DNA from: a virus
Virus record (IMG/VR): IMGVR_UViG_3300009537_001688
Coordinates: 1 to 24,092 of that record
Reading direction: 5' to 3' (one strand)
DNA length: 24,092 bases
Below the pieces are notes generated by a model. The model had not been told where the DNA came from. It made no database searches and saw nothing but the letters and a program-made list of their open reading frames with translations. The translations under genes and the position numbers were made by a program. How positions within the stretch are numbered: the first letter of the stretch is position 1; each line of letters opens with the position of its first letter. Below, in pieces: positions 20,127 to 23,505 of this stretch.

Positions 20127-20721
20127 TTGCCTTCTCCCACGGGAGCATGTTCCCGCCCCCCAGATTCAAGATGATGGTGGGGGTGACGCTTCCTCCACCG
20201 TCGCGACGCCTTCGACCTGTCATGTCCAGCACGTCCCGGGCGGCTTCCCGCCGCTGGCTGTCGTCCCCGTAGAGCAGGTCGTACTCGATTTGAGCCATGG
20301 CGCTGGGCAACAGCTCCACGGCTTTCTTGTCGGCCCACTCCTCCGCGTCCGCTCCTTCGAGCCCTTGGGGCATTTTGAGCAGGGCCATCCGAACGGCCCG
20401 CTCAGCGAGACGCTTGCCGACCCGCTCAGCGGTCTTGGCTTGGTGCTCCTTGTCGAGGGCGATGATGTCCAGCTCGTTCTGACCACCGGGAGCCTTCCGC
20501 AACTCTTCAACCGCCCGCATGGTCATGCCGTCGATGTTCTTGGACATCACCCGCTTGGCCTTGGAGGACGACCGGCCCTGCTTGGCGGCAGCCTTGCTCA
20601 GAGCCGTCACCTTCGGCAGCAGCGACTGTGGGGCGGAAGTCCCGCCGCAGTAGATGGGGGTGCATCCCTCACGGGGTAGAGCGTGGCCCTTGGGGCACTC
20701 CGTGAAGCTGAGCTTGGTCAT
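20029..20721 (-). CDS. Probable terminase small subunit with N-terminal Cys/His cluster (230 aa)
   Basis: ATG 20721 overlaps the stop of the HTH gene (ATGA) and has GGAAGGA upstream, so I prefer it to the GTG at 20736. Residues 9-25 contain C9-x3-H13-x6-C20-x4-C25 (ECPKGHALPREGCTPIYC), a likely small zinc site. The middle is helical. The segment LLPSAMAQIEYDLLYGDDSQRREAARDVLDMTGR resembles the helical repeat region seen in several phage small terminase proteins, where an A-A-x-x-[VL]-L-D-x-x-G motif follows a short helix. Position directly before TerL supports a DNA-recognition role in packaging. The family match is by pattern, so the function is moderately confident only. Confidence 0.62.
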   Translation of the reverse strand: MTKLSFTECPKGHALPREGCTPIYCGGTSAPQSLLPKVTALSKAAAKQGRSSSKAKRVMSKNIDGMTMRAVEELRKAPGGQNELDIIALDKEHQAKTAERVGKRLAERAVRMALLKMPQGLEGADAEEWADKKAVELLPSAMAQIEYDLLYGDDSQRREAARDVLDMTGRRRRDGGGSVTPTIILNLGGGNMLPWEKASAKVTAGTATRIEAGANAAVGDGPPRTPKADG

Positions 20722-21020
20722 ACCGGGTCCTTCCACGCAGCTTGACCCAGTTCAGTGGCCAGCCACGAGGAAGCCGGGACCTTGCCCCCGGTGGTGCGCT
20801 CCAGCTTGAACGCCCAGATGAGGGTGGGGAGTGCCTGCCCGTTGCGCCAGTACTCCACCCGCTTGCGCTCCAGCCCAAGGGTGGCGGCGAACGCCTTGTT
20901 GCTCCAGCCCGCCTCAGTCATCCAGATGTCTAGGGGCGTCTCGCAGCGAGGGCGGGCACCAACGCGCAGCCCGGCTCCCCATGTGGTGCGTTTCTTCCCC
21001 ATGGGGTGGAGAACTTTCAC
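20718..21020 (-). CDS. XRE/Cro-type helix-turn-helix protein (up to 100 aa)
   Basis: Residues about 29-80 fit an XRE-type DNA-binding fold: TPLDIWMTEAGWSNKAFAATLG, then LERKRVEYWRNGQALPTL and an ERTTGGKVPASSW tail. The alanine-rich second helix and the W-R-N-G-x-x-x-P turn are characteristic. It is the first gene of the leftward late operon and overlaps the TerS gene by four bases. The outer start is GTG 21020 and an ATG lies at 21002; neither has a clear ribosome site. TTGACA at 21040-21035 (minus strand) would place a transcript start near 21005, making the ATG nearly leaderless. It could be the regulator of the divergent promoter, or a DNA-binding packaging factor. Which start is used is undecided. 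Confidence 0.72.
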   Translation of the reverse strand: MKVLHPMGKKRTTWGAGLRVGARPRCETPLDIWMTEAGWSNKAFAATLGLERKRVEYWRNGQALPTLIWAFKLERTTGGKVPASSWLATELGQAAWKDPV

Positions 21021-21091: not shown

Positions 21092-21382
21092 ATGGAAAAA
21101 CTCAAAACGGCTGAGACGGCCAAGCACGAGCACCACACCGTGGACGACGCCAGCACCATCGACTGGCACCGCATGACGTTCCCCCTTGGCGTCCGCACGA
21201 ACTTGACCGAGCTGGACCCCCCGTACCTAGCCCTCGGGCCTGACGAACTGGAGATTCTGCACAAGCTGCTGACCAAGGTGCTGCCGGGCTGCGACCACGC
21301 AGCAGCGGACGAGTACCTCACTCTCTTGACGCTCGCCACCTGGGCCAAGCGAGCCCGCGAGTGGGCGCTGAGGTCCAAGTAG
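21092..21382 (+). CDS. Small protein of unknown function, first rightward gene (96 aa)
   Basis: ATG 21092 is the first start after the divergent region. Its ribosome site is weak (only ACTAACTC before it). The product has a polar, His-containing N-terminus and then an ordered-looking helical part (PPYLALGPDELEILHKLLTKVLPGCDHAAADEYLTLLTLATWAKRAREWALRSK split across residues 43-96). This amphipathic helix-rich pattern argues that it is real rather than a shadow of the minus-strand frame over the same bases. No family is recognised. As the first gene diverging from the HTH gene it could be an early or regulatory protein, but the sequence does not show which. Confidence 0.6.
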   Translation: MEKLKTAETAKHEHHTVDDASTIDWHRMTFPLGVRTNLTELDPPYLALGPDELEILHKLLTKVLPGCDHAAADEYLTLLTLATWAKRAREWALRSK

Positions 21383-21556: not shown

Positions 21557-21630
21557 GGGGGGTGTTAGTGGGAATAGGAGTCCTACGTTCATACGTGCGT
21601 GCGGGGGGTGGGGTCGGTAGGGTACGCGCG

Positions 21631-21655
21631 TACTACGTACTACGTACTACGTACT
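21631..21655. repeat. TACTACG tandem repeat, about 3.6 copies
   Basis: Three exact 7-bp copies (21631-21637, 21638-21644, 21645-21651) are followed by TACT. Each junction forms the self-complementary hexamer TACGTA. It directly precedes the 17-bp iteron array by one base. Confidence 0.85.
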
Positions 21656-21656
21656 G

Positions 21657-21725
21657 ACATTGTTGATGTAGATACATTGTTGATGTAGATACATTGTTGA
21701 TGTAGGTAACATTGTTGACGTAGAT
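21657..21725 (+). repeat. Four 17-bp AT-rich iterons
   Basis: The unit ACATTGTTGATGTAGAT occurs exactly at 21657-21673 and 21674-21690. It recurs with small changes at 21691-21707 (last two bases GT) and 21709-21725 (one T-to-C change), with one extra base before the last copy. A partial fifth copy (GTATTGTT) follows at 21726. In the overlap between units, TACAT and ATGTA form inverted 5-bp arms around TGTTG. The block is far more AT-rich than its surroundings. Iterons of this kind bind replication initiators or repressors. Confidence 0.85.
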
Positions 21726-21760
21726 GTATTGTTACCTGCGGCGCCCAAGCGCCTCCGAGT

Positions 21761-22340: not shown

Positions 22341-22378
22341 AAACCCCCAGTGACCACTCGGTCACTGGGGGTTTTTTT
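22341..22378 (+). terminator. Strong intrinsic terminator after the 129-aa gene
   Basis: Positions 22341-22355 and 22360-22374 pair perfectly over 15 bp around the loop ACTC, and the run TTTTTTT lies at 22372-22378. It starts 24 bases after the stop codon. The other strand ends in a TTTT run as well, so it may act in both directions. This is the clearest terminator in the window. Confidence 0.92.
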
Positions 22379-22774: not shown

Positions 22775-23086
22775 ATGAACACGCCCATCCCATCTCTCAC
22801 GTCAACTGAGTTTCTTGCCCTGTTCCCGTCTACCGACATTCACATGGCAATGAAGCGGGCTCTGGAGCGCTACCCCGACGCTCTGGGGATGGTCTGCTAC
22901 GAAAACCTCGCGTTCGATTCGTCCCAGTTCGGTGAGCGGGCCATGCTGGTCATTGGGCCCTCGAATACGATTCGCACTCTGGAGGACGTGAAGAACACTC
23001 CCATTGGGGACGTACCGTCGCGCTTCAAGTACCCCGTGAGCTTCTGCCCGCGCCCGGCGCTACTGGCCGCTCTGTCTTCGGTCTGA
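22775..23086 (+). CDS. Small protein of unknown function (103 aa)
   Basis: ATG 22775 is preceded by CACAGGAGTCCTG, a clear ribosome site. Visible order: Ser/Thr-rich N-terminus with TSTEFLALFPS, a helix MAMKRALERYPDALGMVCYENLAF, then SSQFGERAMLVIGPSNTIRTLEDVKN and a final helix ALLAALSSV. The mix of helix and strand suggests a folded cytoplasmic protein. It has no signal peptide or membrane segment and no known motif. It is preceded by the structured stretch and followed by the CCAGAACC repeat region, so it may be regulated as its own unit. Confidence 0.72.
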   Translation: MNTPIPSLTSTEFLALFPSTDIHMAMKRALERYPDALGMVCYENLAFDSSQFGERAMLVIGPSNTIRTLEDVKNTPIGDVPSRFKYPVSFCPRPALLAALSSV

Positions 23087-23103
23087 AAATCGACCGACCA
23101 GGG

Positions 23104-23132
23104 TTGACATTTACTGGTTCTGGCGCAATGGT
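23104..23132 (+). promoter_or_regulatory. Possible promoter with repeat motif in its spacer
   Basis: TTGACA at 23104-23109 is a perfect -35. At 17 bp spacing the -10 would be AATGGT (23127-23132), only three of six. The spacer contains GGTTCTGG (23116-23123), the same motif as in the downstream repeat cluster, so a protein bound there would overlap the promoter. The promoter itself is uncertain. Confidence 0.35.
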
Positions 23133-23253
23133 TAGCGCGCCTCTTGAGGGTCGCGCAAGAGACACCCCCAGAACCCAGAACCGCCCTCGATTCTCATAGG
23201 GGAAACGCCAGAACACCCCGGTTCTGGCGTTCCAGAACCCAGAACCCAGAACC
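23116..23253. repeat. CCAGAACC / GGTTCTGG repeat cluster ending at a start codon
   Basis: The 7-base core CCAGAAC occurs six times on the plus strand and twice in inverted form: inverted at 23116-23123, two tandem copies (7-bp period) at 23168-23182, one pair forming an 11-bp perfect inverted repeat (23204-23214 with 23221-23231, 6-nt loop), and three tandem copies at 23232-23253. A separate inverted repeat CTTCTG-like arm pair, CTCTTG (23141-23146) and CAAGAG (23156-23161), lies between. The last copy ends one base before ATG 23254. Such clusters are operator arrays or iterons. Confidence 0.85.
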
Positions 23254-23505
23254 ATGAAAAAGACCCACGTTCGCACCCCCTTCCCCAAAGGGGACCAGCC
23301 CGTCAAATCAGCCCCCCTCAGCGACATCGAAGTCGAAGTGATGCTCTACGGGGCCGCTTGTGCCAAGGCCGCCGACCTTGCCGGGATGGCCAAAGTCGAG
23401 AAACACGACGGACGTAAGGCGCAGTTTTGGAAAGGCTACTTCAACGCTGTCGGTGAGAAGGAGAGGGTCTGGACGGCGTTGCGCTTGAAGCTGCAAAAGA
23501 GGTAG
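23254..23505 (+). CDS. Small basic protein of unknown function (83 aa), start abuts repeats
   Basis: ATG 23254 directly follows the third tandem CCAGAAC copy, so there is no Shine-Dalgarno sequence; only the repeat lies before the start. The protein is Lys/Arg-rich (MKKTHVRTPFPKGDQPVK at the N-terminus) and then helical (LSDIEVEVMLYGAACAKAADLAGMAKVEKHDG, split here by its own Gly/Met turn, then FWKGYFNAVGEKERVWTALRLKLQK). A basic, helical protein encoded beside its own repeat cluster could bind those repeats, but no known DNA-binding motif is visible. A later start (M30 or M45) cannot be excluded. Confidence 0.6.
   Translation: MKKTHVRTPFPKGDQPVKSAPLSDIEVEVMLYGAACAKAADLAGMAKVEKHDGRKAQFWKGYFNAVGEKERVWTALRLKLQKR

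Follow-up and report, generated by a model that had tools for sequence, protein, structure and literature searches.

A heptamer cluster adjoining a start codon in an uncultivated tailed phage and its possible role in translation

What might a cluster of direct, inverted, and tandem copies of one heptamer do when it ends exactly at a start codon? The question is raised by a 24-kb record of an uncultivated tailed phage, all 24,092 nucleotides of which were analyzed here (the window). Terminase, portal, and other late genes lie on its minus strand, and small plus-strand genes start from position 21092. For the cluster, the original prediction had offered three roles, an operator array, a second replication origin, or an RNA-level control in which the repeats replace the Shine-Dalgarno sequence.

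The CCAGAAC cluster and its promoter candidate

The count against chance that the original prediction called for, made here for the core CCAGAAC within the window, gave 18 copies, compared with 4.1 expected from shuffles. Eight non-overlapping copies are packed within 138 bp (23117-23252), and the positions of the six direct and two inverted copies were all confirmed. The heptamer cluster is far above chance: the densest 7-mer per 138 bp reached 8 copies in the real window and only 3 (85 runs) or 4 (15 runs) in 100 Markov-3 simulations. All CCAGAAC tandems of the 24-kb fragment were found at the 23116-23253 locus, rather than in several sets of the same unit. Seven of the eight copies extend to the complete 8-mer CCAGAACC (five direct, two inverted), and that at 23208 reads CCAGAACA. 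The elements of the locus are as follows.

23168, 23175, 23208, 23232, 23239, 23246: direct copies of CCAGAAC
23117, 23221: inverted copies of CCAGAAC
23167..23182, plus strand: tandem pair CCCAGAACCCAGAACC
23204-23214 / 23221-23231, plus strand: perfect 11-bp inverted repeat AACGCCAGAAC/GTTCTGGCGTT with a 6-nt loop, present as claimed
23232..23253, plus strand: triple tandem (CCAGAAC)3C adjoining the ATG, without a Shine-Dalgarno sequence
23104..23132, plus strand: promoter candidate TTGACA-N17-AATGGT with a weak -10 (3/6, A2 + T6)
22775..23086, plus strand: upstream 103-aa ORF, possible source of a read-through transcript
23254..23505, plus strand: 83-aa ORF, ATG at 23254-23256

The first inverted copy does lie, as had been proposed, in the spacer of a possible promoter (TTGACA at 23104-23109, spacer of 17 nt), from which transcripts would be expected to start at ca. 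23139. A stricter promoter scan did not list this candidate. Only two sites of the whole 24 kb, counting both strands, score 9/12 with A2/T6, one being the candidate at 23104 and the other preceding a gene for a weak helix-turn-helix (HTH) protein (20718-21020). The latter gene is preceded by the promoter candidate TTGACA-N16-GAAAGT (21040-21002, minus strand), and its internal ATG at 21002 would give a nearly leaderless mRNA from there.

A palindrome and half-sites, as in a putative operator array, are present in the sequence, and a phage repressor or the 83-aa protein could bind the palindrome at 23204-23231 together with the spacer half-site and repress the promoter. The 9-mer CGCCAGAAC appears three times at the locus, at 23117 (minus), 23206 (plus), and 23221 (minus), compared with an expectation of 0.39 over the whole window; one half-site falls between -35 and -10, the 28-bp palindrome has the size of an operator, and the HTH protein would be a candidate repressor. 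We nevertheless consider this reading unlikely. The CG extension is missing from the tandem copies, which reach as far as the start codon, where an operator would be unexpected, and the 83-aa protein, without a match to any family, DNA-binding ones included, is modeled as two long helices (single-sequence prediction, low confidence). Moreover, the HTH gene has nearer candidate sites in another array.

21657-21733: 4.5 tandem copies of the 17-bp unit ACATTGTTGATGTAGAT, each copy containing the palindrome TACAT-N5-ATGTA; operator or iteron array

Directly before these 17-bp repeats stands a further heptamer array, (CGTACTA)3.9, at 21629-21655.

The same 17-bp array is the better candidate for an origin. 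The claim that the CCAGAAC cluster is a second replication origin, for which clustered direct and inverted copies could serve as iterons, found no support: the cluster has no adjoining AT-rich stretch, its 7-bp unit is short for iterons, and no replication protein was recognized in its vicinity. We regard this role as extremely improbable.

The start of the 83-aa gene and the predicted fold of its leader

The start of the 83-aa gene can be placed at ATG 23254 because its frame contains a TAG at 23197-23199 and then no ATG, GTG, or TTG before that codon. Therefore, the triple tandem, at 0 nt from the ATG, occupies the place where a Shine-Dalgarno sequence is expected, which bears out the original prediction on this point. 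No Shine-Dalgarno sequence was found in the 83-aa leader, while AGGAG-like sites precede several other genes of the window (e.g., at 22775 and 23543). The GC3 of the ORF (0.77) is similar to that of the neighbor genes. A 23-codon ORF (23128-23199), also devoid of a Shine-Dalgarno sequence, ends at the TAG in the 83-aa frame.

Folding predictions pointed to an interaction between this start and the inverted copy in the promoter spacer.

23110..23123, plus strand: predicted anti-start arm containing the inverted heptamer copy, RNA UUUACUGGUUCUGG

This arm and 23246-23259, i.e., the last heptamer plus the AUG, show 86% complementarity over 14 nt. For RNAs with a 5' end at 23110 or farther upstream, the arm/start helix had a predicted probability of 0.83 to 0.98. 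The predicted probability of an unpaired AUG was 0.13 to 0.38 for RNAs from 23110 or earlier and ca. 0.7 for those from 23134-23150. Among 19 starts of the window, compared in equal RNAs, that of the 83-aa gene was the least accessible (positions -8 to +6 unpaired, 0.16; others, 0.33 to 0.82). When 23060-23123 was shuffled preserving dinucleotides, none of 300 sequences gave an equally inaccessible start region, although 6% did so for the AUG alone. Any inverted copy may be expected to pair to some extent with a direct one, and what is specific here is limited to the pairs in the flanks and to the choice of the last copy over the others. The hairpin at 23204-23231 (local fold of ca. -21 kcal/mol) was predicted to form with a probability of 0.67 to 1.0 in all the transcripts folded.

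Searches of phage records by blastn and tblastn retrieved no relatives of the site. The 83-, 137-, and 103-aa proteins had no relatives in IMG/VR, and the relatives by terminase and capsid, L004 (85%) and L309 (81%), are 5.6-kb contigs that end short of the site.

On this basis, we propose, with somewhat less than even confidence, that the leader controls translation of the 83-aa gene, which would be silent on read-through RNA and expressed when transcribed from its own promoter. The gene lacks a Shine-Dalgarno sequence and has three tandem heptamers in its place before the AUG; the steps beyond this are predictions made from sequence and folding. The C/A-rich, mostly single-stranded tract would admit the ribosome without a Shine-Dalgarno sequence, perhaps via S1. 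In transcripts reading through from the upstream gene, 23110-23123 would bind the last heptamer together with the AUG, hiding the start, and the 11-bp hairpin would sit inside the loop closed by this helix. The spacer of the candidate promoter would itself encode the anti-start arm, and transcripts initiated at the TTGACA promoter would lack the arm and hence be translated. As for the read-through RNA, no terminator-like site was detected from the 103-aa ORF to 23254 (the scan's sole plus-strand listing was at 22357-22369). Counting against the model, no promoter candidate able to yield such RNA was found, and a strong intrinsic terminator is located farther upstream, at ca. 22344-22378, between the 129-aa and 61-aa ORFs (12-bp stem CCCCCAGTGACC/GGTCACTGGGGG followed by T7).

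The heptamer before bacterial and viral genes

When 84,980 species genomes were searched for (CCAGAAC)3C, the matches listed included Desulfobacterota, Verrucomicrobia, Chloroflexota, Acidobacteria, Bacteroidetes, Planctomycetota, Vibrio, Photobacterium, and others, some of them in complete genomes. With crude ORF calling and in samples chosen for having arrays, 123 distinct bacterial arrays had the ATG of an ORF (≥100 aa) within 10 nt downstream in 13 forward and 2 reverse cases (P = 0.007), and the following 10-nt bins held 2 to 3 each. Likewise, among the loci fetched from 37 array-bearing genomes, dimers with an ATG at ≤12 nt opened an ORF of ≥100 aa in 18/26 forward and 4/19 reverse cases. 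Judging from N-termini read by eye, the starts led by forward dimers presumably belong to proteins resembling TrpG/PabA, FolP, GalU, and PdhB. Within one phylum, a forward dimer ≤12 nt from an ATG was found in only 3 of 297 genomes, the center genome counted in.

The arrangement of the phage start itself recurs. One bacterial genome (L315) carries an identical (CCAGAAC)3C-ATG before a 104-codon ORF, and in a virus contig (L034) eight copies adjoin the ATG of an SNF2-type helicase gene. These two cases, and the forward, start-proximal recurrence across phyla, are what could be expected if specialized ribosomes or a trans-acting RNA-binding protein recognized the heptamer, the phage exploiting a host system. 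By analogy with other repeats, such recognition can be conceived, but we find it quite improbable, given that arrays are gained and lost freely, that the start-proximal dimer is so rare within a phylum, and that several unrelated heptamers are found in such places.

Gain and loss were apparent in both of the bacterial gene families that were compared. For a FliG-like gene of one bacterial family, orthologous leaders contain either six copies, or two, or degenerate heptads, or no repeat at all, and a clear Shine-Dalgarno sequence is absent from every one. In the pdhB family the array is present in one of nine leaders, all of which lack a Shine-Dalgarno sequence. Because arrays turn over while Shine-Dalgarno-free leaders persist without them, the array is, as far as these sequences indicate, at home in leaders of this kind, where it is tolerated or used, and not essential. 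For the same reason, the claim that the repeats replace the Shine-Dalgarno sequence was too strong, since orthologous leaders free of the array lack this sequence too. The wider claim of an RNA-level control fared better, and was the best supported of the three originally offered, considering the fixed start, the lack of a Shine-Dalgarno sequence, the same placement elsewhere, and the predicted folding.

The variation of the FliG-like and pdhB leaders could also mean that heptamers born by slippage or inversion are simply tolerated where initiation is independent of the Shine-Dalgarno sequence, with no regulatory role. A second, unrelated heptamer array in the window, the (CGTACTA)3.9 mentioned above, fits such simple-sequence turnover. 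This explanation is possible, though doubtful to us: against it stand the sharp peak of forward orientation at ≤10 nt from starts, the 9-mer common to three copies at the locus, and the predicted AUG-specific pairing, extended into the flanks, with the arm placed in a promoter spacer. Overall, the RNA-level reading is the one we favor, tentatively, with inert repeat turnover and the operator array next.

Inverted copies were found near only 3 of the 123 bacterial arrays, and they were rejected as a general feature of the arrays. Near the array of L034 there were none. The proposed switch is for this reason not general to the heptamer, and the inverted copies are, by this comparison of sequences, what is specific in this phage.

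Most single matches to CCAGAACCCAGAACC in viral contigs look like coding sequence of other phages. Two virus contigs with 93% identity (L092, 3336-3475; L105, 5825-5950) have in common an intergenic cluster in which CCAGAAC is both direct and inverted, well away from any start codon. In L067 (7407-7500), two heptamer arrays of ca. 25 bp each form an inverted pair ca. 50 bp apart. Other heptads (TACGNAA-like, AGCTNAT-like) precede bacterial gene starts in three leaders (L303, L278, and L287), and start-proximal heptads may therefore form a wider class.

Comparison with known repeats and meaning of the leader

The nearest parallel in position is the TAACTGA heptamer of Beggiatoaceae, whose direct repeats lie forward, a few nucleotides from start codons, over the Shine-Dalgarno position; they are also scattered across distant phyla, and a trans-acting RNA-binding protein or specialized ribosomes have been proposed to act on them (MacGregor 2015, PMC4679880). 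The phage array likewise consists of tandem direct heptamers, forward, at 0 nt from the ATG and without a Shine-Dalgarno sequence. However, its unit is CCAGAAC, it is viral, it has inverted copies able to fold onto the start, and only one start-adjoining array is present in the 24-kb fragment.

The nearest parallel in mechanism comes from phage T4, where early, long transcripts of e, soc, 49, and I-TevI form an inhibitory helix over the ribosome site, and local transcripts from late promoters, which start within this structure, escape it as they lack its 5' strand (PMC3014915, PMC2988022). In our phage, a start-covering helix is predicted in long transcripts, and repression by it would follow under the proposed model; the arm at 23110-23123 is also located in the spacer of a promoter candidate (TTGACA-17-AATGGT), though its -10 is weak. 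Unlike those of T4, the leader has no Shine-Dalgarno sequence, the predicted pairing is between copies of a dispersed heptamer, and the promoter candidate is of the sigma-70 type, with that weak -10.

Two other groups of heptameric repeats differ further. Those of Xanthomonas (GGGAATC) and Nostoc, C/G rich, are intergenic and located preferentially ≤50 bp from an ORF, the sense strand being the C-rich one (PMC4692102). The unit is different, the study covers no phage, and the template strand of our array lacks four G3 runs; a template-strand quadruplex was accordingly rejected, having too few such runs (GG-GGG-GGG-GG; reverse of 23232-23253, GGTTCTGGGTTCTGGGTTCTGG). In Haemophilus influenzae, a tract of ATCTTTC repeats between promoter and gene tunes expression of hmw1A, with 13 to 24 phase-variable copies away from the start codon (PMC8262952). 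The phage tract also lies between a (candidate) promoter and its gene, but in three tandem copies that adjoin the start codon. In the literature searched, tandem CCAGAAC retrieved no paper on bacterial repeats, the matches being immunology papers. The combination of start-proximal heptamers with a T4-type sequestration looks new.

A broader proposal, which we consider improbable, is that CCAGAAC arrays are a Shine-Dalgarno-independent initiation element across bacterial phyla, of which the phage would have made a switch by means of an inverted copy in the promoter spacer, the choice of promoter opening the start codon. The position of heptamers at start codons was described for TAACTGA in 2015 without a test, and CCAGAAC arrays show the same forward placement in many phyla. 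With its three tandem and its inverted copies, the phage leader is a compact, testable case for a role of heptamers in translation, and also for the way in which the choice of promoter can open or close a start codon that has no Shine-Dalgarno sequence.
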